In this document: in pieces, positions 1-17,965 of the stretch
Layout of the letters: every line of letters starts with the position of its first letter
Numbering within the stretch: position 1 is the stretch's first letter
Assembly (NCBI RefSeq): GCF_020627745.1
Contig: NZ_JAHDGE010000019.1
Coordinates: forward strand, 1 to 33,772
DNA length: 33,772 nucleotides
Direction: 5' to 3'
From: Pseudooctadecabacter sp.
GTDB taxonomy: Bacteria > Pseudomonadota > Alphaproteobacteria > Rhodobacterales > Rhodobacteraceae
Notes under the pieces: model-generated
Told to the model about the DNA's origin: nothing
The model's database searches: none
What the model saw: the letters and a program-made list of their open reading frames with translations, nothing else
Position numbers and translations under genes: made by a program

Positions 1-386
1 TCCACGTCGCCGCCGATGGCCGACAGGGCGTACCACAGATAGGCGCGCACCAGATCGGGTTCCGGCAGACCGCGCCCGATCTCGTAATACCAGCCCAGCC
101 CCGACTGCGCGCCGGGGTGCCCTTTGAGGGACGCGCGCAGATACCATTCAAACGCGCGTTCGTCGTCGCGCTCCACCCCCAGACCCAGCGCATACATCAC
201 CCCGATCAGCTCCTCCGCATCCGCATTGCCGGACCTTGCCAGAACCTCGAACATCGCGCGCGCCTCGACAAAATCGCCCGCCTCCATCAGATCGCGGGCC
301 TCCTCCAGATCAGCGGCCATCGCAGGACTTGCCAGCGCCACCAAAACCGCCAAAGTAAGGGCATGGATTGTATGACGCGTGTACAT
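1..386 (-). CDS. Sel1-repeat protein, exported (partial, 3' end outside window)
   Basis: The reverse strand reads from an ATG at 386 without a stop to the window edge, giving about 128 residues. An N-terminal signal peptide is visible (LAVLVALASPAMA before ADLEEARD), so the protein is probably periplasmic. After it come Sel1-type TPR units, recognisable by patterns such as AFEWYLRASLKGHPGAQ and GLGWYYEIGRGLPEPD. Sel1 repeats form alpha-solenoid scaffolds for protein contacts, so no catalytic role can be read from them. There is no clear Shine-Dalgarno sequence before the ATG, but this start is the only in-frame ATG that preserves the signal peptide. The start region overlaps the start of the divergent cytochrome c peroxidase gene. 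Family assignment is good; the specific role is unknown. Confidence 0.75.
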   Translation of the reverse strand, partial: MYTRHTIHALTLAVLVALASPAMAADLEEARDLMEAGDFVEARAMFEVLARSGNADAEELIGVMYALGLGVERDDERAFEWYLRASLKGHPGAQSGLGWYYEIGRGLPEPDLVRAYLWYALSAIGGDV

Positions 387-1685
387 ACGGGTTGTGTACA
401 GGGTGTGCACGCAGTGTGCCTCCTTTTTTGGGGGGCCTTGGGCGTGGCTGCCGACCCGATCTCTCTGGATGATTTCGTGGATGCCGACCCCGCGCAAGCG
501 CGAATTGGCCAGCTGCTGTTTTACGACAAAATCCTCTCCGGCAACCGCAATATTTCCTGCGGCACCTGTCACCACCACGACCACGCGGGCGGTGACGGTT
601 TGTCCCTCGGGATCGGCGAAGGCGGCACCGGCGTGGGGCCGGACCGCACCATCGGCGACATCCGCAAACGGGTGCCAAGAAACGCGCCAGCCCTTTGGAA
701 TCTCGGGCATAATTCCGTTGACGTGCTGTTTCACGATGGCCGGTTGGAGGTCTCGGACCAGTTCGGAAACGGCTTCGATTCCCCCGCCGAAGAATGGCTG
801 CCGCAAGGTCTGGACAACATTGTCGCGGCGCAGGCCCTGTTCCCTCTGACAGCCCAGTTCGAAATGGCCGGCAACCCCGGTGAAAACGACATCGCAGGGG
901 CCACCCATGACCGGATTGATGCGGCCTGGCCGATCCTCGCCGCCCGCATTCGCGCGGAACCCGACTACGTGAGGATGTTCACGCAAGCCTTTGAAACCGT
1001 TGACGAACCTCTGGACATCACCATCGTCGAGATTGGCAATGCGCTGGGGGCGTTCATCACCTCCGAATGGCAAAGTTTCGACAGCCCCTATGACGCTTGG
1101 CTCACCGGAACGCCCCTGCCCGACGACGCCGAACGGGGCCGCGCGCTGTTCTTTGGCGAAGCCCGCTGCGCCGCGTGCCATTCCGGCCCCCTGTTCACCG
1201 ATCAGGGGTTTCACGCCCTTGGCCTGCCTGCGTTCGGGCCGGGCCGCACGCGGACCTTTGACAAGATGCCCCGCGATGTGGGCCGCATGGGAGAAACGGA
1301 CCTGTTATCAGATGCTTACCGGTTCCGCACCCCGTCCCTGCGCAACGTCGCCCTCACCGCGCCTTATGGCCACAACGGGGCCTATCCGACCCTGCGCGAC
1401 ATGATCCGGCACCACGCGGACCCCACCGCCGCCCGTGCCGCATGGACGCCCGCCATGGCGGCCCTGCCCGTGACAGACAGGTTTCTGGGTGTGGATTTCG
1501 TGATCCAGCAGGACGCACGCGAAATGGCCCGTCAGTCGGCAGTCCTCGACATCAATCCGGTGGCGCTTTCTGATGCGGAAATCACTGATATAGAAGCGTT
1601 TTTACACAGTCTCACCGGTGCCACAGCCGACACCCGCCCCTTGGGGCGGCCCGACGTTGTTCCCAGCGGATTGCCGGTCGATTAA
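372..1685 (+). CDS. di-heme cytochrome c peroxidase / MauG family protein
   Basis: A 437-residue protein from an ATG at 372. Two CxxCH heme c sites are visible: CGTCH followed by further His residues near residue 60, and CAACHSGPLF near residue 270. The C-terminal part has the family pattern FRTPSLRNVALTAPYGHNG. These features define the bacterial di-heme peroxidase/MauG group, which reduces hydrogen peroxide or oxidises proteins in the periplasm. A hydrophobic segment ending GALGVAA before DPISLDDF is the likely signal peptide. I chose 372 because AAGG at 357-360 is well placed before it and it keeps an Arg in the n-region; ATG 363 and GTG 405 or 414 are alternatives. The frame stays open upstream to 117, but that part only mirrors the Sel1 gene. 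Its stop overlaps that of the convergent nitroreductase gene. Confidence 0.85.
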   Translation: MTRVHTGCVQGVHAVCLLFWGALGVAADPISLDDFVDADPAQARIGQLLFYDKILSGNRNISCGTCHHHDHAGGDGLSLGIGEGGTGVGPDRTIGDIRKRVPRNAPALWNLGHNSVDVLFHDGRLEVSDQFGNGFDSPAEEWLPQGLDNIVAAQALFPLTAQFEMAGNPGENDIAGATHDRIDAAWPILAARIRAEPDYVRMFTQAFETVDEPLDITIVEIGNALGAFITSEWQSFDSPYDAWLTGTPLPDDAERGRALFFGEARCAACHSGPLFTDQGFHALGLPAFGPGRTRTFDKMPRDVGRMGETDLLSDAYRFRTPSLRNVALTAPYGHNGAYPTLRDMIRHHADPTAARAAWTPAMAALPVTDRFLGVDFVIQQDAREMARQSAVLDINPVALSDAEITDIEAFLHSLTGATADTRPLGRPDVVPSGLPVD

Positions 1686-2650
1686 CGCAGCACCTCCGCC
1701 AGTGGCCGCCGCGCGCGCGGCGGGGCCGCACCTGTGGGGCGACCAAACCGGATCGCCTGAATAAACCGTCTGTCCGGTGGCAGCCCGAACCGGCGATAGA
1801 CGGCATCGCACGTGGGGGGATGATCGGACAGGGCGGCCATGGGCCAGCCCGCCAATCCAAGAGACGCAGCCTCAAGACACAGGCGCAGATACGCCCGCCC
1901 CGACGTCACGGCGCTTTCTGAAATATCTCGATGAAACAACGCGATGAGAGGTGATTTTGAAGTTACCTCAACCTCGGAGACAAGCGTTTTTGCCAATCCC
2001 AGACGCGACAGGACCGGCCACAGTTTCACCAACGCCCAAGGCACCAGACGCGCCTGTGCCGCTGTCATCTGCAGGGCCGCGCGGTCCATCCCGTCGCGGC
2101 CTGCCCGGGGATGGGTGTCGGACAGGCGCATCCAGTTGACCAGTTCCGTCCGAAAGGCACCATCGGCCATGACGGCAAGGCTCGCCTCGTCATTGCGCGC
2201 CGCGATCCATTCGCGTTCTCCCTGTGACAAAACAAACCGCGTGTCGGAACGGGTCCAGCCGTAAAGGACGGGGGGGGCGTCCTCGAACGCCCCGCGCCAT
2301 GTGAACCGCGCCTCCAGATGGGCATGCAACCGGTCCTCCGGCCCGTCCCGCACCGTCAGATGCGCCACAGGCACAAGCCCCTGACCGGGCGCGGTGTTCC
2401 GACCTGTTTCGGTCACCTGCGCGCCCAGACCATGGGCGGACAGGGCCAACGCCATCCCCTCCAGAACCGCGCCGCACGACAAGGCCGCATCGCGCCCCGT
2501 GGGGTCCCCCACCTGCAATCCCACGTCGGTATCACAAAACAGGGATATCACGTCGCCGTCACGCGTCCAGCGCGCGGGCTGGGTGTTGTGAACCGTCGGG
2601 GCAAGGGCGGCCCGCATGACACAGTTTTCAAATATATCTTGTGATATCAT
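1682..2650 (-). CDS. Acg-like FMN nitroreductase family protein
   Basis: A 322-residue protein beginning with the motif AALAPTVHNTQPARW, typical of the Acg-type branch of the nitroreductase family known from mycobacteria. The C-terminal part contains SLGLAGWPMAALSDHP and an RFGRPTG segment that fit the FMN-binding fold. Canonical family members use FMN and NAD(P)H to reduce small molecules; some Acg proteins are thought to bind flavin without classical reductase activity, so the reaction is open. The start ATG overlaps the stop of the upstream membrane-protein gene (ATGA at 2647-2650), so it is the last gene of a four-gene translationally coupled operon. I recall that an Acg-like domain occurs fused to a ThiF domain in mycobacterial MoeY (Rv1355c). 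That supports a functional link to the ThiF gene two positions upstream. Confidence 0.8.
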   Translation of the reverse strand: MISQDIFENCVMRAALAPTVHNTQPARWTRDGDVISLFCDTDVGLQVGDPTGRDAALSCGAVLEGMALALSAHGLGAQVTETGRNTAPGQGLVPVAHLTVRDGPEDRLHAHLEARFTWRGAFEDAPPVLYGWTRSDTRFVLSQGEREWIAARNDEASLAVMADGAFRTELVNWMRLSDTHPRAGRDGMDRAALQMTAAQARLVPWALVKLWPVLSRLGLAKTLVSEVEVTSKSPLIALFHRDISESAVTSGRAYLRLCLEAASLGLAGWPMAALSDHPPTCDAVYRRFGLPPDRRFIQAIRFGRPTGAAPPRARRPLAEVLR

Positions 2651-3834
2651 CGGGGTATCGCCATCAATCGCGCCATGCGTTGCACAGCGGCCAATTCAAG
2701 TTCTGCGCGGGGGGACGCGGCAAGGGCCGGCATCGACACAGCCACCAGTGTCAGCGGATCGTCGTCTGCCAGCAGGATATGGGTCGCGTCGAACAACCCG
2801 AAAAGGTGCGCAATATGGTCCCCTTCGGTTCCGTCCGTGAACGGCGGATCAGCGCGTTTGAGGACGGGGCGCACCGCGAAAACATGCCGCAACACAGGGC
2901 CGTCCAGACCGGCCAGATCACCGGCTGACACAAGGACAGCCCCCTCCACCAACGGATGCGATTGCAGGCCGCGCAAAAACCCCATGCCATCGCGGGACCG
3001 GTCCTCGGCCAGATGGCGCAGCAAGGACTGTGACTGCTCCTCGGTCCTGAGGCTCTGCGCCTCGACAACCAGAACCGCCACCATAAGGGACGCCAGAACC
3101 ACAGCGAGCGTCAGAACCGTCTCGTCCGTGGTCAACGGCACCATAAAGGCAATCACCGTTCCGGACAGCGCCGCCGCCACCACGATGGCCATGAACGACA
3201 CCACAGGTGTGCGATGGCCCGTATGCGTCCGGCCGAGGGACACCGCCAGCCAGCACAAGAACAACACCCCCAAGGGTGAGGTTTGGGCCGGAAACCCCAG
3301 AAATACCAACAGAAAATCCGCAGCCGCCAAGGGGACCAGCAAGACCAGAGACAGGGCAATCCTCTCAACCGACCGGTTTTCTGCAGCAGTTAAGCTGGCG
3401 CGATCACGGCGCAGGACCATCCATCCGCCGATAGCAAAACCGCTCAGCTGAAACACCATAAGTCCCGCCAGACGCGCCGGATCAATGCTGTCACGCCACC
3501 ACAAGGACAGCACTGCAAAGACAGCCGTGCCCCCAGCAACCCACAGTTTCGCCATCGGCGGCGCATGACGGCGCAACAGCCCTTCGGTCAGGATCAACAC
3601 GGATATCGGGATAAGAGAGGCCCCTAACAGGATGAAAAACCTGAAGAATTGTACATCCGTCAGAATAAACAACGCCCGTCCCGCAAAAAGAAGCATCATC
3701 ACCCGAAGCCCAAAGATGAACCGTCGGTTCAATGGCGCCCAAGCATCGCGGGCCGAAATCACGTGACTTACGATCATCAGCCCCGCCAAAGCCGATGCAG
3801 AAAGGAACAGATTGCCAATCTCGGACGGTCCCAT
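2647..3834 (-). CDS. polytopic membrane protein with short cytosolic C-terminal domain, sensor-like
   Basis: A 395-residue protein with eight or nine hydrophobic segments over residues 6-260, for example IGNLFLSASALAGLMIVSH, FRFFILLGASLIPISVLIL and LTLAVVLASLMVAVLVVEA. A soluble region of about 135 residues follows (EEQSQSLLRHLAEDRSRDGM to the end). The layout resembles the membrane input module of 7TM-type sensor kinases, but I find no H-box, N-box or G-box, so it is not a working histidine kinase as it stands. The C-terminal domain could be a degenerate GAF- or kinase-like fold; that is a guess. It starts inside the stop of the ThiF gene (ATGA at 3833-3836) and ends inside the start of the nitroreductase gene. 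I do not recognise the family. Membrane location is clear; function is unknown. Confidence 0.7.
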   Translation of the reverse strand: MGPSEIGNLFLSASALAGLMIVSHVISARDAWAPLNRRFIFGLRVMMLLFAGRALFILTDVQFFRFFILLGASLIPISVLILTEGLLRRHAPPMAKLWVAGGTAVFAVLSLWWRDSIDPARLAGLMVFQLSGFAIGGWMVLRRDRASLTAAENRSVERIALSLVLLVPLAAADFLLVFLGFPAQTSPLGVLFLCWLAVSLGRTHTGHRTPVVSFMAIVVAAALSGTVIAFMVPLTTDETVLTLAVVLASLMVAVLVVEAQSLRTEEQSQSLLRHLAEDRSRDGMGFLRGLQSHPLVEGAVLVSAGDLAGLDGPVLRHVFAVRPVLKRADPPFTDGTEGDHIAHLFGLFDATHILLADDDPLTLVAVSMPALAASPRAELELAAVQRMARLMAIPR

Positions 3835-4700
3835 CAGCCCATCAACCTTGACAGGAACCGCCGCACCAACGGACGCATCATGGCCGCGATCAGGGCCGGT
3901 CTGGGCCGTTCGACCCGCGCGGCATAGGGGTTGAAAAAGTAACCACGATTGTCGGTGCCATGGGGGCGGCCAAGGGCTGCGTTGATCACCTCATAACACA
4001 TCAACTGGCCGGTGGTGATGACCATCGGCGCAAAAGACATCCGCGACCTTTTGCCAGACACAACCTCGCCCACGATGTCGAGATCAATGTAGTGTCTGGA
4101 TGAAGAATGGATCACAACCCATTCGGATTCCTTCAAAAATGCTTCAGACCTCTGGCTATCCGTGATCTGGTCCCATGCCGTTCCCACAGTCGGATAGCCC
4201 ATCCGCACCTCATGGGGCACAGCATCCGGCGTGGTCACATAAACCGACGGCAAGGGGGAGGCATAGGCATCCACCACCGCCCGACCCAAAGCCCGCGCCC
4301 GCCGGTACAAAAGCAGCGATGCGCCCAGATCATCCGTCCCGTTTACCACGATCACGGATCGGGAAATCAGATCATCCACATGATCCGTCCAATCGGCGTG
4401 ATAGACTTCAATCTCAACCTCGGGGTTGATGGTGCGGGCAATCGCGGCGGTGGCTTCGGCCTTGTGGCAATCCACCGTGTCCATGAAACAAAAGACCTGC
4501 CGGTTGAGGTTGCTGACCTCAAACGCGTCCAGATCCGCGATAATCAACCGCCCCACACCTGCGCGCACCAGCCCCAGAATGCAGGCCCCGCCCATGCCAC
4601 CGGTGCCACAGACAAAGACGGTTGCACCACGCAGCGCTTCTTGTTCCTGCGGGGTGACGAAACCGATGTTGCGGGTGGTAAAGGTGGCATAATCAAACAT
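3834..4700 (-). CDS. ThiF/MoeB/HesA-family (E1-like) adenylyltransferase
   Basis: A 288-residue E1-like protein. The nucleotide-binding core is intact: the glycine loop CGTGGMGGACILGLVRAGVG, the acidic and NRQ motif IIADLDAFEVSNLNRQV, a Lys in CHKAEATAAIARTINP, and the aspartate element NGTDDLGASLLLYRRA. Family members adenylate the C-terminus of a small protein (ThiS, MoaD or ubiquitin-like) or a carboxylate. The paired CxxC zinc motifs of MoeB and ThiF are absent, and no thiS or moaD gene is nearby, so thiamine or molybdopterin synthesis is unlikely. The ATG at 4700 is chosen because it aligns with the usual N-terminus and overlaps the upstream gene by 8 bp; the frame is open further to 4739. 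The downstream membrane-protein gene starts in its stop codon. The substrate cannot be deduced. Confidence 0.8.
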   Translation of the reverse strand: MFDYATFTTRNIGFVTPQEQEALRGATVFVCGTGGMGGACILGLVRAGVGRLIIADLDAFEVSNLNRQVFCFMDTVDCHKAEATAAIARTINPEVEIEVYHADWTDHVDDLISRSVIVVNGTDDLGASLLLYRRARALGRAVVDAYASPLPSVYVTTPDAVPHEVRMGYPTVGTAWDQITDSQRSEAFLKESEWVVIHSSSRHYIDLDIVGEVVSGKRSRMSFAPMVITTGQLMCYEVINAALGRPHGTDNRGYFFNPYAARVERPRPALIAAMMRPLVRRFLSRLMG

Positions 4701-5649
4701 CACGGTCCTCGCGCGCGGGCCGCAGGATCGAAAACGCACGGCGCGTGTCGAACCAGTAGAGCACCGGCAGGATCAGCCGCCCAAGCGCCACGTAGATCGC
4801 CGTGCTCAGCACACCGAAGATGGCATTGGCCGGAACCTCCCGCGTCAGATAGCGGCGGATCGCGGGCAAATCCATGCGCCCCAGTTGCAGGATGTCATCG
4901 CCGCGGTCGTAATCGAGCTGATCGGCGCAAAAGGTATTGTAAACCTCATCGCGGTGCTTGGGCGCCGCCTCCCACGTCTTTTTCAGATCGTCGGACCCGC
5001 CGGTGTAGGCGTTGGTGATGACAAAACGGTCCTCGTCGAACCCCGCATCGTCCCCCACGCCAAAGACATGGCGGTGCTGCGCCATGATGCCCCGCGCGAT
5101 CAACACATGGGTGAGCGTCCGCCGCCCCGCGTCCGGCGCAGGCCAAATGTCGGAAAACATCTGGCTGACCATCCCCACCACCGCAGGCACCTGCGTGACA
5201 TTGGACATCCACAGGGGCCGGAACTGATTGCGCACGAACAGCAAAAAACACGTGAGCCCGTAAAGCACCCAAGACAACCCGCCCGACCGTTGATCGGGGT
5301 CCACCATCACCAGCCCCAGATGCAACACATCCACAGGCGCAGGCTGGGTGTCGATCGTCATCACCGCCAGCGCATTAAAGGCCACAGGCGTGCCGTCCTT
5401 GGTGCTGACCAGGGTCACGATCGTGTCGCGCATCCGGTCGCGGTCGCCTGCAAAAACACCGTAGCTCAGCGTGCCGGCGTCCAGCGTTTTGGCCGCCACG
5501 GCGCGCAGATCTGCCGTCAGCGCGGCCAGATCCCCATCGGACATCCAGCGCCCCGGCTTTTCCATGATCCGCACCACATGGCCGCGCCCGTGGCGCAGGG
5601 TCACGTCCATATGGTCGCGGCGCAGGGATGTGAGGAGTGATGCAATCAT
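4693..5649 (-). CDS. GNAT-fold-like putative acyltransferase with C-terminal hydrophobic helix
   Basis: A 318-residue protein, first in the four-gene operon. Residues about 110-150 (VLHLGLVMVDPDQRSGGLSW followed by a helix) resemble the beta4 strand and acetyl-CoA pyrophosphate loop (R/Q-x-x-G-x-G/A) of GNAT acyltransferases. The match is partial, so the fold call is moderate. Near the C-terminus AIFGVLSTAIYVALGRLILP is strongly hydrophobic and could anchor the protein to the inner membrane. The start at 5649 gives the longest reading; ATG 5610 (MDVTLRHGRG) is an alternative, and neither has a strong Shine-Dalgarno sequence. It overlaps the ThiF gene by 8 bp. In context it may supply an acyl group to a product that the E1-like and nitroreductase-like proteins act on; this is inference only. 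Confidence 0.55.
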   Translation of the reverse strand: MIASLLTSLRRDHMDVTLRHGRGHVVRIMEKPGRWMSDGDLAALTADLRAVAAKTLDAGTLSYGVFAGDRDRMRDTIVTLVSTKDGTPVAFNALAVMTIDTQPAPVDVLHLGLVMVDPDQRSGGLSWVLYGLTCFLLFVRNQFRPLWMSNVTQVPAVVGMVSQMFSDIWPAPDAGRRTLTHVLIARGIMAQHRHVFGVGDDAGFDEDRFVITNAYTGGSDDLKKTWEAAPKHRDEVYNTFCADQLDYDRGDDILQLGRMDLPAIRRYLTREVPANAIFGVLSTAIYVALGRLILPVLYWFDTRRAFSILRPAREDRDV

Positions 5650-5740: not shown

Positions 5741-5769
5741 TTGACCGACACCCGACCCAAAACTAGAAC
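5741..5769 (+). promoter_or_regulatory. predicted sigma70-type promoter of the imu cassette
   Basis: A -35 element TTGACC (5741-5746), a 17-bp spacer and a -10 element TAGAAC (5764-5769) lie just upstream of imuA. They match the TTGACA and TATAAT consensus at 5/6 and 4/6 positions. The -10 overlaps the SOS box, the usual geometry for LexA repression. The call rests on spacing and on the operator, not on experiment. Confidence 0.6.
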
Positions 5770-5780
5770 ATAACAGGAAC
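5766..5780 (+). promoter_or_regulatory. LexA operator (alphaproteobacterial SOS box)
   Basis: GAAC, seven bases, GAAC: a perfect match to the alphaproteobacterial LexA site (GTTC-N7-GTTC read on the other strand). It starts 34 bp before the imuA ATG and overlaps the predicted -10 element. It also lies in the divergent region shared with the ThiF-GNAT operon on the other strand, 117 bp from that operon's first start codon, so it could influence both directions. The rest of 5650-5799 shows no open frame or other clear structure. Confidence 0.85.
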
Positions 5781-5799: not shown

Positions 5800-6480
5800 A
5801 TGCGCAGCGCCCTGCCCCCGCCCAAATCCGCGACCGACCTGTTGATGGAACGGGCGGAAACGGCTGGCCGCAAGGGCGAGGCCGACAGCCAGCCCACGTT
5901 GCGCGAACTCTTTGCCGACAAAGCCACAGATGCGGCGGCCTTGGGTTTTATGCTGGCGCAGATCGACATCACCAAAGGCCCCGTCTTGTGGATTTCAGAC
6001 CGCATCAGCCGCAAGGAGGCGGGCGTGATCTGTATGGCGGGCCTGCCCCATGGCATCGACGTGCTGCGCGTGGATGTCTCCAAACCCGTTGACGTGCTCT
6101 GGGCGATGGAACAGGGCTTGGGCTGTTCCACCTTGGGCGCGGTCGTGGGGGAGGTCTGGGGCGATCCGCCTGCGCTGGATTTCACCGCCTCCAAACGGCT
6201 GGCCCTGCGGGCCGAGGCCCATGCAGTCCCTGCATGGCTGATCCGCCGTGCTGCCACCGCCAACCTCAGCGCGGCACGCGCCCGCTGGCGCGTGGCCTCA
6301 CTGGCCTCCATGCACAACCCCGATGACATCCACGCGCTGGGGCAGCCGCTGTGGCAGGCCAACCTGTTCCGCTCCCGCTGGGGCACACCGGGCGAATGGG
6401 TCGCACGGGCGCAAGACGGCACACTCCACCTCGACCACCGCGTCGAAGGCCAGACAGAGGCAGGGGCACGCTATGGCTGA
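5800..6480 (+). CDS. imuA: ImuA-family SOS mutagenesis protein
   Basis: A 226-residue protein with the ImuA pattern: an LRELFADKATDAAALGFMLA segment, a strand GPVLWISDR, then LWAMEQGLGCSTLGAVVGEVWGD and LDFTASKRLALRAEAHAV. ImuA is a RecA-fold-like accessory protein of the ImuA-ImuB-DnaE2 mutasome, which performs error-prone translesion synthesis after DNA damage. I see no Walker A motif, as expected for many ImuA proteins. It is the first gene behind the SOS promoter, with a weak CGGAA ribosome site before the ATG at 5800. The identification rests mainly on gene order, length and these conserved strings, and is firm with imuB and dnaE2 following. Confidence 0.88.
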   Translation: MRSALPPPKSATDLLMERAETAGRKGEADSQPTLRELFADKATDAAALGFMLAQIDITKGPVLWISDRISRKEAGVICMAGLPHGIDVLRVDVSKPVDVLWAMEQGLGCSTLGAVVGEVWGDPPALDFTASKRLALRAEAHAVPAWLIRRAATANLSAARARWRVASLASMHNPDDIHALGQPLWQANLFRSRWGTPGEWVARAQDGTLHLDHRVEGQTEAGARYG

Positions 6481-6488
6481 TCACACAC

Positions 6489-6518
6489 CCTGTTTCGTTT
6501 TGCCTGAAATACTCAAAA
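6489..6518 (-). repeat. dispersed intergenic motif, copy 1 (inverted)
   Basis: In the imuA-imuB spacer. On the reverse strand it reads GAGTATTTCAGGCAAAACG and continues to CAGG, nearly identical to copy 2 at 8476-8505. Similar short motifs are, from memory, common between genes in Rhodobacteraceae. Its function is unknown. Confidence 0.6.
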
Positions 6519-6543
6519 CCCCGCACCTTCGGCACACGCGACA

Positions 6544-8415
6544 ATGAGGGGGGAGGACAAGCTGCCCGTCCTGCCCTTTCCAACGCCGCCCCGCCCCGCC
6601 AAACCACAAGGGGCCACCCCCCAAAGGTCACAGGACACGGCCCAGATGCTGGCCCATGCCATCGCCGCTTTGCACCAGGCGATGGTCACCCCGCCCGTGG
6701 ACCTGAGCGTCACGGACCTGCCGCCCCCCGATGCGCAGGCGGAGGAGGCGTTCACCCCCGTGGGCATCCCGCCCAGCACACCTCGGTGGCGGGCGAGCAC
6801 AACGCCCACAACACCCCTAGACCCGAAGGTCGGGCGGGTGGGTGTCGCCGCAGGCGCAGTCACACCGCCTGACCCCAAAGACCCTCTGGCCCGGCGCATC
6901 ACGGCGCTGCATTTTCCGCGCTTTTCCATGAACCGCTGGCAGTGGCACATGGACCGCGCGGGTCAGGCCCCACCGCCCGAGGTGCCTGTGGCCCTCGCCG
7001 TCGAAGGCCCCCACGGCCCCGTCATCCATGCCACCAACCGCGCCGCCGACCAGCACGGCATCCGGATCGGCGCGCGGGTGGTGGACATGCGCGCGCTGGT
7101 GCCCGATCTGCGGGTGGACTTTGCCGATGTGGGGGGCGACCGCGCGGCCTTGGGGCGGTTGATGCTGTGGGTGCGGCGCTGGTGCCCGTGGTCCACGGTC
7201 GACGGGCCTGCAGGGCTGGTCATGGACACCACCGGGTCCGACCACCTGTGGGGCGGTGAGGCGGCGATGCTGCGCGAAATCGAAGGCAAGCTGTCCACGC
7301 TGGGGCTGGAAACCGATCTGGCCACCGCCCCCACCCATGGCGCGGCCTGGGCGCTGTCGCGCTGCGGTGGCGTGCGCGAGGTCTGCGCACCGCAGGACCT
7401 TGCCACCAAAACCGCCCCCCTGCCCGTGCGCGCCCTGCGGCTGCACCCCGATACGGTGCTTCTCCTGAAACGGCTCGGCCTGAAAACCGTGGGCGCACTG
7501 GCCGATGTGCCGCGTCTGTCGCTGGCGCGCCGGTTCCAGAAGGCGGAACTGGTGCAGAACCCTCTGCTGCGGCTGGACCAACTCATGGGCCGCATGGCCG
7601 AACCCCTGCAAAGCCCTGATGACCCGCCGCAATTCTGCGTCCAGTCCAGCCTGCCGGAACCTGTGATGGACCCCGAACCGCACCTGCCCGATATGGCGCA
7701 AGAGCTTTGCGCAGGGCTGCATGCCGCAGGTCTTGGCGCGCGGCGCATCACCCTTACTGTTTACCGCACCGATGGGGAGGTTGACCGCATTGGCACAGCC
7801 ACGTCCCAAGCCAGCCGCGATGCAGCCCACATCCTGCGTCTGTTTGACGGCAAGCTGGAACGGTTGAACCCCGGCTTCGGCTTCGATCTGATCACGCTGG
7901 AGGCCAGTGTCGTCGAACACGTCGATGTCGTGCAAACCCGCATCGAAGGCGGCAGCGATGAGGGCACGGAACTGGCCCGTCTGGTGGACCGCCTGTCGGC
8001 CAAGTTCGGTGCGGACAACATCCGCCGCCCCGCCCCGCGCGACAGTCACATCCCCGAACGCCGCGAAGGCTGGCATCCCGCCATGGCCCCCGATGCCGCC
8101 CCCCTGCCCGCTCATCCACGCCCGCGCCCCTTGCGCCTGTTGCAGCCCCCCGAGGATATCCGCGTCCTTTATGCCGTGCCTGAAGGCCCGCCCGCCCAGT
8201 TCATGTGGCGGCGTCAGACCCATAAAGTGGTCCGGTTTGAAGGCCCCGAACGGATCGCGCCCGAATGGTGGGCCGACCGCCCCGGCACGCGGTTGCGCGA
8301 TTATTACCGGATCGAGGACCAGCACGGGTGCCGGTACTGGCTGTTTCGCGAAGGCGTGGTGGGCGATGGTCGCGGCGGTGCACCCCGCTGGTGTGTGCAA
8401 GGATTGTTCGCATGA
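6544..8415 (+). CDS. imuB: ImuB, inactive Y-family polymerase subunit of the SOS mutasome
   Basis: A 623-residue protein. From about residue 119 it follows the Y-family fold: ITALHFPRFSMNRWQW takes the place of the catalytic DxD strand, and VMDTTGSDHLWGGE the place of the SIDE motif. The catalytic acidic residues are therefore missing, as is usual for ImuB, which acts as a scaffold linking ImuA, DnaE2 and the sliding clamp. The C-terminus (RLLQPPEDIRVLYAVPEG, then YRIEDQHGCRYWLFREG) is characteristic. Residues 1-118 are a Pro/Ala-rich extension I do not expect in this family; the true start could be further in, but the next in-frame ATGs are at 6646 and 6682 and still leave an extension. It lies 63 bp after imuA and is followed by a strong terminator. 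Confidence 0.88.
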   Translation: MRGEDKLPVLPFPTPPRPAKPQGATPQRSQDTAQMLAHAIAALHQAMVTPPVDLSVTDLPPPDAQAEEAFTPVGIPPSTPRWRASTTPTTPLDPKVGRVGVAAGAVTPPDPKDPLARRITALHFPRFSMNRWQWHMDRAGQAPPPEVPVALAVEGPHGPVIHATNRAADQHGIRIGARVVDMRALVPDLRVDFADVGGDRAALGRLMLWVRRWCPWSTVDGPAGLVMDTTGSDHLWGGEAAMLREIEGKLSTLGLETDLATAPTHGAAWALSRCGGVREVCAPQDLATKTAPLPVRALRLHPDTVLLLKRLGLKTVGALADVPRLSLARRFQKAELVQNPLLRLDQLMGRMAEPLQSPDDPPQFCVQSSLPEPVMDPEPHLPDMAQELCAGLHAAGLGARRITLTVYRTDGEVDRIGTATSQASRDAAHILRLFDGKLERLNPGFGFDLITLEASVVEHVDVVQTRIEGGSDEGTELARLVDRLSAKFGADNIRRPAPRDSHIPERREGWHPAMAPDAAPLPAHPRPRPLRLLQPPEDIRVLYAVPEGPPAQFMWRRQTHKVVRFEGPERIAPEWWADRPGTRLRDYYRIEDQHGCRYWLFREGVVGDGRGGAPRWCVQGLFA

Positions 8416-8417
8416 GG

Positions 8418-8452
8418 GGGACGATCTGCGATCGGTGCCTGCGGCAGGCGGG
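8418..8452 (+). repeat. 35-bp element, copy A, downstream of imuB
   Basis: Matches 11886-11920 without gaps at 30 of 35 positions by my count. In both places it sits directly after a mutasome gene's stop codon and is followed by a hairpin and a copy of the GAGTATTT-type motif, so the three parts form a composite intergenic repeat of 88-97 bp. Confidence 0.7.
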
Positions 8453-8456
8453 GCGC

Positions 8457-8479
8457 GCGCCGCTGCGCGGCGCTTTTTT
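8457..8479 (+). terminator. intrinsic terminator between imuB and dnaE2
   Basis: A perfect 7-bp stem GCGCCGC (8457-8463) and GCGGCGC (8467-8473) with a TGC loop, followed directly by six T. This is a textbook rho-independent terminator 42 bp after the imuB stop. It implies that dnaE2 is at least partly uncoupled from the SOS promoter of imuA, or that the signal is read through. Confidence 0.8.
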
Positions 8480-8505
8480 GAGTATTTTTGGCAAAACGAA
8501 ACAGG
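8476..8505 (+). repeat. dispersed intergenic motif, copy 2
   Basis: Begins in the T-run of the terminator and reads GAGTATTTTTGGCAAAACG and on to CAGG. It is the inverted counterpart of copy 1, so the two copies flank imuB. Confidence 0.65.
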
Positions 8506-8522
8506 GCGCGGGGCAGTGACAC

Positions 8523-11500
8523 ATGCCCGAGAATGACCATCAGCATCCGCGCCGCACCCTGCCCGAGGACGGGGTGTTCACGCCCAACGTCAAGGCGTCC
8601 TATGTCGAGTTGGGGATGTTCAGCTGTTTTTCCTTTCTGCGTGGCGCATCGGATGCCGTGGATCTGGCGTCCGAGGCTTGGTCGCTGGGCTATGACTGCA
8701 TCGCGGTGGCGGACCTGAACACGCTGGCGGGCGTCGTGCGCATCTGGGGCGAGGCGCGCAAGGCCAAGCTGCGTCCGCTGATTGGCGCGCGGATCGAGCT
8801 GATCACCGGTGAGGCCTTTCTGGCCTACCCCCGCGACCGTGCCGCCTATGGGCGGTTGTCACAGCTGATTTCCAAGGGCCGGATGACCGACAGGGATGGC
8901 AACTGGCAGGCCAAAGGTGCGTGTGATCTGACATTGGGCGATCTGGCCGCCCACCAAGAGGGGCTGATCCTGATTGCTGTGCCCTCTGAGGATGTGCAGA
9001 CGTACGGGCGCGGGTTGGCCCGGCTGTGCAAGGCGCTGCCGTCCTTGGGCTATCTGGCGGCCTCCTACCTTTACCGGGGCGATGATGCGCTGCGCATCAA
9101 CCGGACTGACGCGCTGGCGCGGCGTCATGGGCTGCGTCTGCTGGCCACCAATGACGTGTTGTACCACGCGCCCGAGCGTCGCCCCTTGCAGGACATCATG
9201 ACCTGCATCCGCGACCATTGCACCCTGACCGAGGCTGGCAGCCGGTTGGAACCCAACGCCGAACGCCACCTCAAATCCCCCGCAGACATGGAACGCCTGT
9301 TCCGCCAGTGGCCCCATGCCATCGCCGCCACCCGCGCCGTGGCCGATGCCATCACCTTTGATCTGGGTGAACTGGCCTACGAATACCCCCGTGAGGTGAT
9401 CCCCACAGACATGACACCCCAGGCCTATCTGGAAAAGCTGACATGGGAGGGGGCCGCCTGGCGCTATCCGGACGGCGTGGCCGAGGCGACGAAGGCCGTT
9501 TTGGCCAAGGAACTGGCGATGATCGAAAAGCTTGATATTGCGCGGTATTTTCTGACCATCCACGACATCATCCACTATGCCCGCCACGTGGCCCAGCCCG
9601 AAATCCTGTGTCAGGGGCGCGGGTCGGCGGCCAATTCCGCCGTCTGCTATGTGCTGGGGATCACAGCCGTGGATCCCGCGCAGCACAGCCTGCTGTTTGA
9701 ACGCTTTATCAGCGAAGAACGCAAAGAGCCGCCCGATATCGACGTGGATTTCGAACATGAACGCCGCGAGGAGGTGATCCAGCATATCTATCAGAAATAC
9801 GGCCGCGACCGCGCAGGGCTTTGTGCCACGGTGATCCACTACCGCCCCCGGTCCGCCATCCGTGAAGTGGGCAAGGTCATGGGCCTCAGCGAGGATGTGA
9901 CCGGTGCGCTGGCCAAGACGATCTGGGGCAGCTGGGGCAAGGATGTGGACGGAGACCATGCCAAGGAGGCCGGTCTTGATATGTCCGATCCGCTGCTCAG
10001 GCGGACGATTTTGTTGGCGGGGCAATTGATCGGGATGCCGCGTCACCTGAGCCAGCATGTGGGCGGGTTTATCCTGACCGAACGCCCCCTGACGGAAACG
10101 GTGCCCATCGGCAACGGGGCCATGGCGGACCGGACATTTATTGAATGGGACAAGGACGATATCGACGCACTTGGCATCCTGAAGGTCGATATTCTGGCGC
10201 TGGGGATGCTGACCTGCATCCGCAAATGTTTCGACATGATATCAAAGCAGTACGGGCGCGACCTGACCCTTGCGACCACCCCGCAGGAAGACCCGCGCGT
10301 CTATGACATGCTGTGCCGCGGCGACAGCATCGGCGTCTTTCAGGTGGAAAGCCGCGCCCAGATCAACATGCTGCCGCGCCTGCGCCCGCGCCGGTTCTAT
10401 GATCTGGTGATCGAGGTCGCCATCGTCCGCCCCGGCCCCATTCAGGGCGACATGGTCCACCCCTATCTGCGCCGCCGCAACGGGGAGGAACAGGTGATCT
10501 ATCCCGCCCCTGGCGCCCCCCATGATCCGGCTGAGTTGAAGAACATCCTTGGCCGCACCCTGGGCGTGCCGATCTTTCAGGAACAGGCCATGAAGATCGC
10601 CATCGAGGCGGCAGAATTCTCCCCCGCGGAAGCCAACGAGCTGCGCAAGGCCATGGCGACCTTCCGGTCCCGCGGCACGATTGAACTGTTGCAGGAAAAG
10701 ATGGTGGGCCGGATGATGCGGCGCGGCTACGACGAAGACTTCGCGCGCCGCTGTTTCGACCAGATCAAGGGCTTTGGCGAATACGGCTTTCCCGAAAGCC
10801 ATGCCGCGTCTTTCGCGCTGCTGGTCTATGTATCCAGCTGGCTGAAATGCCACTACCCCGATGCCTTTTGTGCAGCCTTGCTGAACTCCCAACCCATGGG
10901 GTTTTACGCCCCCGCACAGCTGGTCCGCGATGCCCGCGAACACGGGGTCGAGGTCCGCCCGCCGGATGTGAATTATTCCCATTGGGACAGCACGCTGGAG
11001 CCGCTGACCGGATACCACGTCCCCTCTTCATCTGGCCAGAAAAACTCAAATCCCACCGATCCCACCGGGCGCTACGCCCTCCGGCTGGGGCTGCGCCAGA
11101 TCACAGGCTTCCGCGAAGACGCCGCCGCCCGCCTGATCGCGGCCCGCGATGCGCCCTACCGCGATCTGAAAGACCTGCAAGACCGCGCAGGGCTGACCGC
11201 CCCGCACGTGCGCCGACTGGCCGAAGCCGATGCCCTGCGATCCATGTTTCTGGACCGCCGTCAGGCGCTCTGGGACGCCAAAGCGCTGCGCGACGCGCCT
11301 GATTTGCCGCTGTTCCAAGAGGCGCGCGATGAGGGGGCGGAGGCCCCCGTGGCCTTGCCGGAAATGCCTGTCAGCGAACAGGTGGTGGCCGATTACCAGA
11401 CCCTGCGGCTGAGCCTGAAAAAACATCCCATGGCGTTTTTGCGCCGGTCTTTGGCCGGGCAAGGTTACACCGATTGCGGGCAGCTGAAAGACATGGGCGG

Positions 11501-11882
11501 CTGGCGGAAGGTGTCGATGGCGGGGCTGGTGCTGATCCGCCAGCGGCCCGGATCGGCCAAAGGCGTCTGTTTCATCACCATCGAGGACGAACACGGGGTG
11601 GCCAATCTGGTGATCTGGCCCAAGGTGATGGAGGCGTACCGCAAAATCATCATGCAATCGCGTCTGATCGTGATCCATGGCTATGTGCAGCGCGATGTGG
11701 ATGTGATTCACGTGGTGGCGGAACGTCTGGAGGACCGGTCGGACGCCCTATTGGCCCTGTCAGCGGATGCGATGCCCACAACGGTGGCGCGGGCCGATCA
11801 CGTCGTCAGCCCTTTGCCGTCCACGTCATCGCGCCACCCCCGCGATGTACAGATCATTCCGAAAAGCCGTGATTTTCACTGA
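8523..11882 (+). CDS. dnaE2: error-prone DNA polymerase DnaE2 (ImuC)
   Basis: A 1119-residue C-family polymerase. The N-terminal PHP domain begins with YVELGMFSCFSFLRGASD. The catalytic aspartates are present: D405 and D407 in PDIDVDFEHERRE and D556 in ILKVDILALGML, matching the E. coli DnaE triad. Then come the fingers (NELRKAMATFRSRG), a helix-hairpin-helix region (ITGFREDAAARLIAARDAP) and a C-terminal OB fold (KGVCFITIEDEHGVANLVIW). As DnaE2 it is the catalytic subunit of the ImuAB mutasome and makes damage-induced mutations. Residues about 830-851 are an insert that overlaps a copy of the dispersed intergenic motif. The gene starts 107 bp after imuB, behind a terminator. Length and motifs make the call secure. 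Confidence 0.95.
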   Translation: MPENDHQHPRRTLPEDGVFTPNVKASYVELGMFSCFSFLRGASDAVDLASEAWSLGYDCIAVADLNTLAGVVRIWGEARKAKLRPLIGARIELITGEAFLAYPRDRAAYGRLSQLISKGRMTDRDGNWQAKGACDLTLGDLAAHQEGLILIAVPSEDVQTYGRGLARLCKALPSLGYLAASYLYRGDDALRINRTDALARRHGLRLLATNDVLYHAPERRPLQDIMTCIRDHCTLTEAGSRLEPNAERHLKSPADMERLFRQWPHAIAATRAVADAITFDLGELAYEYPREVIPTDMTPQAYLEKLTWEGAAWRYPDGVAEATKAVLAKELAMIEKLDIARYFLTIHDIIHYARHVAQPEILCQGRGSAANSAVCYVLGITAVDPAQHSLLFERFISEERKEPPDIDVDFEHERREEVIQHIYQKYGRDRAGLCATVIHYRPRSAIREVGKVMGLSEDVTGALAKTIWGSWGKDVDGDHAKEAGLDMSDPLLRRTILLAGQLIGMPRHLSQHVGGFILTERPLTETVPIGNGAMADRTFIEWDKDDIDALGILKVDILALGMLTCIRKCFDMISKQYGRDLTLATTPQEDPRVYDMLCRGDSIGVFQVESRAQINMLPRLRPRRFYDLVIEVAIVRPGPIQGDMVHPYLRRRNGEEQVIYPAPGAPHDPAELKNILGRTLGVPIFQEQAMKIAIEAAEFSPAEANELRKAMATFRSRGTIELLQEKMVGRMMRRGYDEDFARRCFDQIKGFGEYGFPESHAASFALLVYVSSWLKCHYPDAFCAALLNSQPMGFYAPAQLVRDAREHGVEVRPPDVNYSHWDSTLEPLTGYHVPSSSGQKNSNPTDPTGRYALRLGLRQITGFREDAAARLIAARDAPYRDLKDLQDRAGLTAPHVRRLAEADALRSMFLDRRQALWDAKALRDAPDLPLFQEARDEGAEAPVALPEMPVSEQVVADYQTLRLSLKKHPMAFLRRSLAGQGYTDCGQLKDMGGWRKVSMAGLVLIRQRPGSAKGVCFITIEDEHGVANLVIWPKVMEAYRKIIMQSRLIVIHGYVQRDVDVIHVVAERLEDRSDALLALSADAMPTTVARADHVVSPLPSTSSRHPRDVQIIPKSRDFH
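11021..11051 (-). repeat. dispersed motif copy 3, inside the dnaE2 coding sequence
   Basis: The reverse strand reads ATTTGAGTTTTTCTGGCCAG and continues into GATGAAGAGGGG, which resembles copies 1 and 2 (about 23 of 33 positions with copy 1). Here it is translated in frame as part of residues 830-851 of DnaE2. The reading frame is kept. Confidence 0.5.
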
Positions 11883-11885
11883 GGC

Positions 11886-11982
11886 GGGACGATCTTCGAT
11901 CGGGTCCTGCGGACGGCGGGTGCAAATTTTCTGACGAAAATTTGGCCTCCGGCGGAGGTATTTGAGAACCAGAGAAATCAGG
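11886..11982 (+). repeat. composite intergenic repeat, copy B, between dnaE2 and fdsD
   Basis: Contains, in order, the 35-bp element (11886-11920), a perfect 8-bp inverted repeat CAAATTTT/AAAATTTG (11923-11944), a hairpin CCTCC-GGC-GGAGG (11946-11958) and a copy of the GAG-TATTT-type motif (11954-11982). It sits between convergent genes and probably ends transcription from both sides, although no run of six T follows either stem. It just reaches into the fdsD stop codon. Confidence 0.6.
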
Positions 11983-12196
11983 CTGTGGTTTTCACGACCC
12001 TTTGCGCACCCTCCAGGGCCAGCGGGCTCAGGCCGTCACCGCCTGCATCAAGATGGGCGGCCAGTTGATCCAGCATCCGCGGCTCCCAGAATTCTTTCAG
12101 GTGATCGGCCACGCGCTGCGCCTTGTCGGCGTCCGGCTGGGTTTCGAAAAACGTGGCGATCTGGTTGGCCATGCGGACCATTTTGTCAGGCGACAT
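11978..12196 (-). CDS. fdsD: formate dehydrogenase delta subunit FdsD
   Basis: A 72-residue protein starting MSPDKMVRMANQIATFF, the typical beginning of FdsD, followed by ADHLKEFWEPRMLDQLAAH. FdsD is the small subunit needed for assembly of the NAD-dependent molybdenum formate dehydrogenase, probably for cofactor loading together with FdsC. The open frame continues to 12262, but the ATG at 12196 matches the family start and gives an 11-bp overlap with fdsC upstream. It is the last gene of fdsGBACD. Confidence 0.9.
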   Translation of the reverse strand: MSPDKMVRMANQIATFFETQPDADKAQRVADHLKEFWEPRMLDQLAAHLDAGGDGLSPLALEGAQRVVKTTA

Positions 12197-12977
12197 CGGT
12201 GGCGTCCTCGGTGTGAATACGGTGGGGATGGGTGAAGATTTCAAAGGTGTCGTCGCGCGCAAGGGCGACGAGGGTGATATCGGCGGCCTCGGCCGTCTCG
12301 ACGGCCAAGGTTGTAGGGGCTGAGACAGCGAGGACCACAGGCGCGCCCGCCATCGCCGCCTTTTGCACCATTTCGACCGAGACGCGCGAGGTCAGGACAA
12401 TCGCCCCGGCTGTGGTATCAGGTGTCGCGCCGATCAGTTTGTCCAATGCATTGTGGCGCCCGACATCTTCGCGAACAGTCACAAGCCCTTGATCCGGTTC
12501 GAAAAAGCCCGCGCCATGCACCGCACGGGTCCGATCATGCAGCGCTTGCCCCGCCCGCAGGGCTGCCATCGCATTTGCGATTTGAGGCGCGGTCAGCGTC
12601 AACTCAGCTGCGACCTTGGGCACAGCGCGGTCCGCCTCCTCAAGGCTGTCGATCCCGCACAGGCCACACCCCACAGGGCCCGCCATGGCCCGCCTGCGGC
12701 TGGCCAATGCCTCCGCCTGCGCGTCCGGCAGCCACATCTGCACCTCGATACCTTTGGGATGGGTCACGACCTCGATACTTTCAACCTCACCCAAGCCTTC
12801 GGTACGGGTAAATCCGCGCCCGAAATCCTCCAGATCACCGGGGGTCGCCATCATCACGGCCTGCGTGGTGCCGTTGTAGACCAGCGCCACAGGCACCTCT
12901 TCCGGCAGCGCGCGGCTGGCCTTTCGCGCGCGACCGTTGCTCACCACGTGAGCGGTGGTTGCGCGCGCGCCGGTCAC
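12186..12977 (-). CDS. fdsC: FdsC / FdhD-family formate dehydrogenase accessory sulfurtransferase
   Basis: A 263-residue FdhD-family protein. The signature GPVGCGLCGIDSLEEA holds the CxxC pair that, in E. coli FdhD, carries sulfur from IscS to the molybdenum cofactor. RTRAVHGAGFF and VREDVGRHNALDKLIG are further conserved blocks. It is needed for sulfurated, active formate dehydrogenase. I place the start at GTG 12977, whose last two bases overlap the fdsA stop (GTGA). The frame is open to 13037, but that would extend 64 bp into fdsA and add a sequence not seen in the family. The product is cytosolic and works on FdsA with FdsD. Confidence 0.9.
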   Translation of the reverse strand: MTGARATTAHVVSNGRARKASRALPEEVPVALVYNGTTQAVMMATPGDLEDFGRGFTRTEGLGEVESIEVVTHPKGIEVQMWLPDAQAEALASRRRAMAGPVGCGLCGIDSLEEADRAVPKVAAELTLTAPQIANAMAALRAGQALHDRTRAVHGAGFFEPDQGLVTVREDVGRHNALDKLIGATPDTTAGAIVLTSRVSVEMVQKAAMAGAPVVLAVSAPTTLAVETAEAADITLVALARDDTFEIFTHPHRIHTEDATDVA

Positions 12978-15886: not shown

Positions 15887-15930
15887 GACGTCGCTCCTTT
15901 ATTCATCTTGGCCAATACAACTCCGGGGGT

Positions 15931-15948
15931 GCGGGGGCTGGCCCCCGC
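15931..15948 (-). repeat. strong hairpin in the fdsB-fdsA spacer
   Basis: GCGGGGGC (15931-15938) and GCCCCCGC (15941-15948) form a perfect 8-bp GC stem with a 2-nt gap. A second inverted repeat, ATTTAC-GCA-GTAAAT (15957-15971), stands beside it. Both lie inside the operon, between stop and ribosome site, with no T-run, so they may mark mRNA processing or partial attenuation, or be an intergenic repeat. Confidence 0.6.
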
Positions 15949-15983
15949 CCGGTCGGATTTACGCAGTAAATTCGATCCAAACA

Positions 15984-17501: not shown

Positions 17502-17965
17502 GCGCCTGCCTCCTGCAAAAGCCTGTCCAGCTTGTCGGCATCCACACGGCCCACGACTTTGTTGTCGACCATCGCGGCCGGACCGCAGGCGCACAGGCCA
17601 AGACAATAGACAGGCTCCAACGTCACGGCCCCATTGGTCGTGGTGCCATGCCAGCCCACGCCCAGCTTTTCGAACGCACGTTCTGAAATCGCGTTGCCGC
17701 CCACGGCCTGACAGGCCTCAGCGCGGCAAATCTTGACGATATGTTTGCCCGCAGGGGCATCGCGGAAGTCGTGATAAAAGGTGATGACACCATGCACTTC
17801 GGCGCGGGTGATGTTCAGGTCATCGGCAATGATCTGGACCACATCACCGGGGATAAACCCGAACTCTGCCTGCACCGAATGCAGGATCGGCAGCAACGGC
17901 CCCTCTTGGCCCTTATGGCGCGCAAGAATGTGCTGCATGGTTTGTGTGGTCTGGGTATCGGCCAT
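17498..17965 (-). CDS. fdsG: NAD-dependent formate dehydrogenase gamma subunit FdsG
   Basis: A 155-residue NuoE-like protein with a thioredoxin-fold [2Fe-2S] site. The four ligating cysteines are in ICRAEACQAVGGN and CLGLCACGPAAMV. It binds beside FdsB and takes part in electron transfer from formate to NAD+. It is the first gene of the operon; an AAAGGA ribosome site lies upstream of the ATG at 17965. The promoter must lie in the 90 bp to the regulator gene or further upstream, since both genes run the same way. Confidence 0.95.
   Translation of the reverse strand: MADTQTTQTMQHILARHKGQEGPLLPILHSVQAEFGFIPGDVVQIIADDLNITRAEVHGVITFYHDFRDAPAGKHIVKICRAEACQAVGGNAISERAFEKLGVGWHGTTTNGAVTLEPVYCLGLCACGPAAMVDNKVVGRVDADKLDRLLQEAGA

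Follow-up and report, generated by a model that had tools for sequence, protein, structure and literature searches.

OxzAB, TyzACB and TrzAS make N-acyl oxazolones by N-acylation, ATP-dependent cyclisation by a ThiF-type enzyme and O2-dependent flavin desaturation (PMC12856293; PMC10404671, in excerpt). Here we analyze a four-gene operon on the minus strand of a 33,772-nucleotide stretch of DNA from a Pseudooctadecabacter sp. (contig NZ_JAHDGE010000019.1 of a 2.94-Mb draft assembly in 74 contigs; the whole stretch is called the window below). Gene 1 is GNAT-like, gene 2 ThiF/E1-like, gene 3 encodes a polytopic membrane protein, and gene 4 an Acg-like flavin-dependent oxidase (FDO). We conclude that the operon probably encodes an oxazolone-type N-acyl amino acid pathway of Alphaproteobacteria, with separate genes and a membrane partner.

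Each described system shares part of this arrangement. In the tryptazolone system TrzA-TrzS (Rv1356c-Rv1355c), an acyltransferase gene also stands beside a ThiF cyclase and an Acg-like flavin oxidase, but there ThiF and oxidase are fused, whereas the window has four separate genes; the terms "membrane protein" and "transporter" do not occur in the main text describing it, whereas the window has gene 3. Rv1355c, the ThiF-Acg fusion that the initial annotation of this operon had named, belongs with Rv1356c to this oxazolone pathway (PMC12856293). TyzACB (Rv2336, Rv2337c, and Rv2338c; tyrazolone) resembles the window in having separate acyltransferase, FDO, and ThiF proteins and an acyltransferase with few homologues (41), but tyzA lies on the opposite strand, and the neighbors are cysK1, cysE, and mmpL9, not a gene 3 homologue (PMC10404671, in excerpt). 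OxzA-OxzB of Pseudoalteromonas rubra has the same acyltransferase, ThiF, and nitroreductase activities, with OxzB being a ThiF-nitroreductase fusion (PMC10404671, in excerpt). NasY clusters of stieleriacine, kyonggic acid, and thalassotalic acid producers, which are linked to N-acyl dehydrotyrosines, likewise combine an N-acyl amino acid synthase (NAS) with ThiF and a nitroreductase, with short or overlapping spacing in two producers; they differ in their recognizable NAS genes and, in the Stieleria clusters, methyltransferases, and the excerpted text mentions no membrane protein (PMC12479983, in excerpt). Judged by titles and abstracts, the open-licence literature on this combination describes neither gene 3, nor the di-haem neighbor introduced below, nor the Rhodobacteraceae operon, which is not proof of absence. 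The enzymology is of a known kind; the layout and partners are new.

Operon layout and encoded proteins

The genes and their principal features are as follows.

4693..5649, minus strand: gene 1, GNAT-like (GNAT1), 318 aa, proposed N-acyl amino acid synthase (open reading frame [ORF]; homologues beside ThiF; post hoc motif)
5263..5304, minus strand: GNAT motif-A-like stretch VDPDQRSGGLSWVL, residues 116-129 of gene 1, with S in place of the usual G/A (post hoc pattern)
4768..4824, minus strand: C-terminal hydrophobic helix of gene 1, residues 276-294, possible membrane tail (Kyte-Doolittle)
3834..4700, minus strand: gene 2, ThiF/E1-like, 288 aa, proposed ATP-dependent cyclase (PF00899; PRK08223; start kept in relatives)
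4329..4343, minus strand: NGTDD, gene 2 residues 120-124, aligned with DCTDN of E. coli ThiF (alignment)
3837..3890, minus strand: C-terminal basic amphipathic stretch of gene 2, possible membrane contact (hydrophobic moment, net charge)
2647..3834, minus strand: gene 3, polytopic membrane protein, 395 aa (hydropathy; AlphaFold2 model; no family match)
1682..2650, minus strand: gene 4, Acg-like flavin-dependent oxidase of the nitroreductase superfamily, 322 aa, proposed desaturase (PF00881; NF047509; 2ymv)
2570..2602, minus strand: APTVHNTQPAR motif, gene 4 residues 17-27 (aligned with Acg 2ymv)

The four ORFs run consecutively from 5649 to 1682 and overlap at every junction, as the initial annotation had stated. 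Its figures for the first and third junctions (8 bp, and the 4-nt ATGA) are also right, while genes 2 and 3 meet at TGATG with a 1-nt overlap and not at a second ATGA. In relatives, with start codons chosen by script, the spacing is -8 to +11 between the GNAT and ThiF genes (the ORFs overlap by 4 in locus L040), -4 to +5 between the ThiF and membrane genes, and -11 to +1 between the membrane and Acg genes where uninterrupted. The overlaps leave no room for another ORF, so the ThiS/MoaD partner that had been reported as not nearby is indeed absent from within the operon; these families were not searched beyond it.

Gene 2 matches ThiF (PF00899, E = 8.8e-31) and starts at the ATG at 4700, not at the GTG at 4739; this start and an RNxGF motif are kept in relatives. 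E. coli ThiF and MoeB are among its best PDB matches. Its nucleotide-site region aligns with E. coli ThiF (1zud/1zfn), with residues N120, G121, D123, and D124 invariant in 14/14 family members, and none of the 14 has the CxxC zinc pairs, of which the genome's own MoeB has two. The earlier description of a retained ATP site without CxxC is thereby upheld, and because the pairs are missing throughout, a sulfur-carrier role is unlikely. The NCBIfam ranking is led by PRK08223 (107.7 bits; cut-off, 266), followed by the ThiS-adenylating ThiF (88.4) and MoeB (77.9) profiles. With the genome's own MoeB as a control (L002; 325 bits with PRK05690, above cut-off), gene 2 scores higher both with PRK08223 (107.7 versus 57.9 bits) and with the fused profile PRK14851 (76.7 versus 52.5). 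The best 18-mer in the last 30 residues has a hydrophobic moment in the 92nd to 100th percentile of each protein's 18-mers, inflated by being the best of 13 windows, and a charge of +3 to +5 in 14/14 members.

Gene 4 matches PF00881 (E = 5.5e-07) and the Acg-family FMN oxidoreductase NF047509 (E = 9.2e-42; 143.6 bits, under the cut-off of 199). Its best solved relative by profile is Acg itself (2ymv, E = 4.3e-20), the near full-length alignment supporting the superfamily only; the Acg-like nitroreductase label of the initial annotation is backed by these matches. Of the PRK14851 and Rv1355c profiles, gene 4 matches the second half (7.2e-10 and 1.7e-08, respectively), and P18, H21, N22, Q24, P25, and R27 are invariant in 13/13 sequences. 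The kinship of genes 2 and 4 to characterized enzymes was judged by profiles and not by the sequences of TyzB, TyzC, or TrzS, in which D217 and R540 are the residues tested. On this basis, gene 2 leans moderately to the PRK08223/PRK14851 kind and not to Rv1355c in particular.

Homologues of gene 1 adjoining ThiF share 44-80% identity. The usual GNAT motif A reads hydrophobic-x-P-x-x-R/Q-x-x-G-x-G/A; with S allowed at the last position, the pattern occurs in 16/22 aligned gene 1 members (2/22 with G/A only), in 22 of 20,000 shuffles of the window protein, and in 46/67 GNAT1-like ORFs against 2/1150 other ORFs, although it was fitted to the gene 1 family and the loci overlap. The C-terminal helix has a best 19-residue Kyte-Doolittle mean of 1.96 in the window protein, 1.44 to 2.15 in 21/22 members, and 1.23 in the remote Vibrio member.

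Gene 3 has some 8-9 hydrophobic helices, a long helix, and a small C-terminal α/β domain according to hydropathy and an AlphaFold2 model (predicted local distance difference test [pLDDT] of 69.9 for the best model, from 7 close sequences; 45-54 for the other four). It had been described as membrane sensor-like. The polytopic part of that description stands; a Pfam/NCBIfam scan found no family, so no sensor, kinase, cyclase, or DNA-binding domain, and HisKA and HATPase domains were not found. Nor does any of 7 gene 3 profile hits in 398 genomes fuse gene 3 to a full histidine kinase, the form that the initial annotation had proposed to look for, because their open frames span only 388-516 codons. 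Kinship with PrsK (TIGR02916), suggested by the many helices, a DF motif, and a GAF-like end, was rejected (hhalign probability 0.5%, E = 0.12, with 6 PrsK proteins and one of the 7 loci omitted because its frame is unclear). Foldseek with the model gave 758 matches at E <= 10 and none at E <= 0.001; the best 50 of the 758 are mostly seven-transmembrane receptors with TM-scores of 0.17-0.47, that is, generic helix bundles.

Conservation and modularity of the cluster

Conservation was assessed in 295 genomes of the family, 398 of the phylum, and 385 of the class, plus plasmid records, with E <= 1e-20 as the threshold for a ThiF match. A close gene 2 is present in 11/295 family genomes (our own included), and all 11 have genes 1, 2, and 3 in order with gene 4 downstream. 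The named records closest to gene 2 belong to Pseudooctadecabacter, Octadecabacter, and one uncultured Rhodobacteraceae (79-82%). Six of seven named loci (among them L033, from the same genome as G145) have the four-gene form, and the seventh, L038, is cut off in gene 3. Genome G159 has its cluster cut on both sides by contig ends and a gene 2 that changes frame near its start; it aligns in two frames (L022 302-1154, residues 4-35 and 38-287), reflecting a frame break or an assembly error. In three of the 11 (L018, L019, and L021), an additional GNAT of ~365 aa (GNAT2) lies between genes 3 and 4, giving a five-gene form; GNAT2 matches Pfam Acetyltransf_1 (1.2e-08 in L018, 4.8e-09 in L040).

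The gene order is also present in two other families of the class. Among the phylum genomes, the gene 2 search gave 11 hits: our own, two five-gene clusters (G653 and G658), and 8 distant ThiFs (34-48% identity). Plasmid records with a ThiF match number 11, with gene 1 directly beside gene 2 in 10 and the eleventh a partial 32.5% match; in the three annotated plasmid records examined, the order is the five-gene one and genes 1, 3, and 4 are labeled hypothetical. A published criterion for oxazolone clusters is a ThiF adjoining or fused to an FDO and adjoining an N-acyltransferase (PMC12856293). In all 11 family genomes, ThiF and the Acg-like oxidase share one cluster with the membrane gene between them (and GNAT2 as well in three), the acyltransferase being assigned by the post hoc motif only; by its predicted gene content, the operon approaches this criterion.

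The cluster is also modular, and the expectation that the four genes form a conserved unit therefore holds for their co-occurrence in 11/11 family genomes and fails for the five gene pairs, the three-gene form, and the inserted GNAT2. A gene 1 profile matches 16/295 family genomes, comprising the 11 full sets and G294, G049, G022, G242, and G123; G294 has genes 1 and 3 only, G049 has genes 1, 3, and 4 without ThiF, the G022 contig stops after gene 1, and G242 and G123 keep remnants. The three-gene form, with the oxidase and without ThiF, is locus L099. Of the three matches among the 385 class genomes, two are our own genome and G294; the third, G954, carries just genes 1 and 3 (the rest of that genome was not searched for ThiF). 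The gene 3 profile matches 7/398 phylum genomes, and gene 1 precedes gene 3 in each: directly in G294, G402, G488, and G504, none of which has a ThiF at the above threshold, and with ThiF in between in our own genome, G653, and G658. Gene 1-gene 3 pairs without ThiF or Acg genes occur at 5 loci (L079-L083). Because the pair occurs without them, genes 1 and 3 are the core of the cluster and the ThiF and Acg-like oxidase genes an add-on.

In a midpoint-rooted ThiF tree, the four-gene forms make up one group of 9 rows (93/83, on an unstarred branch) nested within the five-gene forms, which suggests that GNAT2 was probably lost once; the L038 row stops short of the Acg gene, the tree does not include G159 and further close loci, and the length of the MoeB and Vibrio rows prevents their placement. 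A Vibrio megaplasmid carries a remote gene 1-ThiF pair (20% identity) that lacks gene 3; there the gene 1 relative overlaps a short ThiF (L057 6515-8430), and no oxidase or gene 3 homologue was seen in 14.5 kb. Some lineages show decay of the cluster: L101 (6358-6909) and L102 (5532-6330) retain degraded gene 1 remnants, and L102 also remnants of gene 4, with a CCP/MauG gene still near.

Four of the 8 distant ThiFs stand directly beside an acyltransferase, which matches FeeM in L043 and TIGR03694 in L042 and L044 and was recognized by alignment only in L047. The acyltransferase is one gene further in L045 and some kilobases off in L046 (profile) and L049 (alignment only), and L048 is a ThiF-oxidase fusion with a PRK08223 score of 411. 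ThiFs adjoining FeeM/TIGR03694 acyltransferases have PRK08223 scores of 419 and 455 (L042, L043). An oxidase beside ThiF was noticed only in L044 among the eight.

The di-haem neighbor and other flanking genes

Two further features flank the operon.

363..1685, plus strand: convergent di-haem CCP/MauG-type protein, its stop overlapping the gene 4 stop (PF03150, E = 2e-33)
5766..5780, minus strand: LexA-box-like GTTCN7GTTC in the divergent promoter region (pattern scan)

A crude script called 312 ORFs in the 22 loci with sequence beyond gene 4. Eight ORFs carry at least 2 CxxCH motifs, and each of them is the convergent ORF abutting the gene 4 stop (-5 to +2 bases). Five are of the CCP/MauG type (window, L033, L036, L037, and L020; by Pfam for the window and by homology for the others), and three are of the RoxA type (L040 and L041 by PF21419, L056 by homology to both), the L041 protein matching RoxA 4b2n (E = 1.5e-06). 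A multi-haem gene is absent at 14/22 loci, including the close Octadecabacter-type loci L034, L035, and L039. The chance value is 1.6e-10 if the 8 are independent and 1.9e-05 if they are 4 lineages, figures that are descriptive only since the pattern was noticed before counting; the window, L033, L036, and L037 belong to a single clade and are not independent cases. The di-haem neighbor is associated with the operon, perhaps functionally too. RoxA relatives include periplasmic fatty-acid dioxygenases (PMC4496055, in excerpt). The neighbors in L040, L041, and L056 resemble RoxA and the oleate 10S-dioxygenase (PA2077), whereas the window's own is of the CCP/MauG type; removal of H2O2 is plausible for the CCP type and less so for the RoxA type. 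In L054, L055, and L058, a large acyl-[ACP]-phospholipid O-acyltransferase-like gene takes the di-haem position (by annotation in L054 and L055, by Pfam also in L054, and by ORF start and length only in L058); the L054 protein (11217-14615) is Aas-like, with MFS, acyltransferase, and AMP-ligase domains.

On the other side of the operon, a dnaE2-like polymerase (Pfam DNA_pol3_alpha) is divergently encoded, preceded by two genes without a Pfam match at 1e-5 that we take to be imuA and imuB (window 5800-11882, plus strand). The idea that the LexA-like box puts the operon under SOS control was rejected: the window holds 2 matches against 0.99 expected, and the box tracks the imuA-like neighbor. 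It occurs in 4/29 loci, which are 4 of the 5 loci with an imuA-like gene beside the cluster (the fifth, L013, from the same genome as L033, was not scanned), and it probably belongs to the imuA/imuB/dnaE2-like neighbors rather than to the operon.

PspA/IM30-family and TetR-type genes lie near the five-gene cluster of L021 (10634-12033) and, in another family, near gene 1-gene 3 pairs (L079 4057-5420, L080 3172-4538, and L081 3423-4801). They might hint at membrane stress from the product. These four loci are those in which a TetR-type gene was seen near the cluster, regulators not having been searched systematically. Formate dehydrogenase-like genes, recognized by eye, lie ~7 kb from the operon (window 12186-17965, minus strand) and upstream of gene 1 in L015 (7830-12998) and L099 (8-4870). 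Elsewhere in the window, an ORF at 31656-32747 (plus strand) opens with a Gly-Pro-His repeat from a 9-bp tandem array (31676-31786).

Proposed pathway, alternatives, and implications

In the proposed pathway, gene 1 would N-acylate an amino acid with a fatty acyl group. Gene 2 would use ATP to activate the carboxylate, cyclizing the N-acyl amino acid to an oxazolone, as do TyzB, OxzB, and TrzS, and gene 4, with flavin mononucleotide and O2, would install the 2,3 double bond, as do TyzC and TrzS. Gene 3 could be a docking partner or lipid outlet, and possibly a sensor; our results do not tell export, flipping, docking, and sensing apart. The di-haem enzyme, probably periplasmic, may act on the product or on by-products. 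The work probably takes place at the inner membrane, because gene 1 has a hydrophobic helix, gene 2 has a basic amphipathic end, and gene 1 has a polytopic companion in gene 3.

Gene content, the lack of MoeB-type CxxC pairs, and the closer match of gene 2 than of MoeB to PRK08223 support this reading. The initial annotation had proposed that an acyltransferase, an activating enzyme, and a flavoprotein make a small modified molecule, which fits OxzAB, TyzACB, and TrzAS; the sequence link is moderate, with the Rv1355c profile matching gene 2 no better than MoeB.

Several observations weigh against an oxazolone pathway, most of them concerning gene 1. The window protein has no family match in Pfam or NCBIfam, including FeeM, Autoind_synth, Acetyltransf_5, and TIGR03694, and the one support for its GNAT-like label is a motif pattern written after its sequence had been seen. 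A PDB search gave chance-level matches only (interferon-activable protein 202, best 0.018; profile E of 1.1 or none), as did two each of 14 aligned members with NodA (best 0.017), Acetyltransf_1 (0.051), and EMC6_arch (0.023). Comparisons by hhalign with the FeeM/TIGR03694 and GNAT2 profiles were null, and the AlphaFold2 model (pLDDT, 37.8) is unusable and thus uninformative on a GNAT fold. For gene 2, all scores with fused profiles are far under the cut-offs. Those with Rv1355c (46.0 bits versus 45.5 for the genome's own MoeB) and PRK14852 (45.3 versus 47.7) are not evidence, because MoeB scores alike, and the Rv1355c and PRK14851 profiles match in 12/14 control genomes below cut-off, their ThiF parts being unspecific. 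Finally, the gene 1-gene 3 pairs without ThiF or Acg genes must do something other than form oxazolones.

The same chemistry could instead end in an open-chain N-acyl dehydro-amino acid, like the thalassotalic and kyonggic acids and the stieleriacines, with ThiF providing a transient activation. The stieleriacine work, in which NAS, ThiF, and nitroreductase genes are linked to N-acyl dehydrotyrosines and oxazolones were not observed (PMC12479983, in excerpt), and the oxidase-bearing locus L099 without ThiF are consistent with such a product. Oxazolones, however, hydrolyze readily in acid or methanol work-up (PMC12856293), so their absence there is weak evidence, and ThiF is retained in 11/16 family genomes with gene 1; we consider an open-chain end product unlikely. 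A signaling unit, in which gene 1 makes an acylated signal that ThiF and the oxidase decorate and gene 3 receives at the membrane, would account for the association of genes 1 and 3, for the many helices and small C-terminal α/β domain of gene 3, and for the resemblance of N-acyl amino acids to acyl-homoserine lactones. That gene 3 has no kinase, cyclase, or DNA-binding domain in family searches and no profile similarity to PrsK kinases makes it quite unlikely.

A sulfur-carrier or cofactor pathway of the ThiS/MoaD type appears very improbable. Gene 2 belongs to the ThiF superfamily, has E. coli ThiF and MoeB among its best PDB matches, and scores second with the ThiS-adenylating profile, but its family has none of the CxxC pairs, the overlapping genes leave no space for a small carrier ORF, and the partners are acyltransferase-like and oxidase genes instead. 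An anti-phage E1 role was also rejected: the best 25 of 31 PADLOC matches of gene 2 are E1-E2 proteins, through the shared ThiF core, the lowest E being 6.8e-14. Genes 1 and 4 have no PADLOC match, and gene 3 has one effector model at 0.016.

In a broader, fairly unlikely reading, genes 1 and 3 encode a system of two proteins that has not been described before in Alphaproteobacteria: an acyltransferase anchored by its tail and a dedicated polytopic outlet for the lipid. Several lineages would add to it cytosolic ring closure by ThiF and flavin oxidase and a periplasmic RoxA/MauG-type di-haem oxygenase acting on the exported acyl chain. If true, this would be an inside-to-outside assembly line for oxidized lipids of the oxazolone or N-acyl amino acid kind, and gene 1 would become a candidate for the synthases that are still missing for the N-acyl amino acids of Roseobacter.

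Descriptions of oxazolone lipids are recent and concern gammaproteobacteria and mycolic-acid bacteria; what these lipids do has been called a major unresolved question (PMC12856293). An oxazolone pathway in this operon would extend the chemistry to culturable marine and soil Alphaproteobacteria, and its membrane partner and recurring di-haem neighbor point to the lipid's destination and possible next fate. A 2024 study of Roseovarius reported N-acyl alanine methyl esters without candidate synthase genes (PMC11580390, in excerpt), compounds reported to be native and not formed by methanol (PMC6296433, in excerpt). Gene 1, as a candidate, is the type of gene to seek in their producers.

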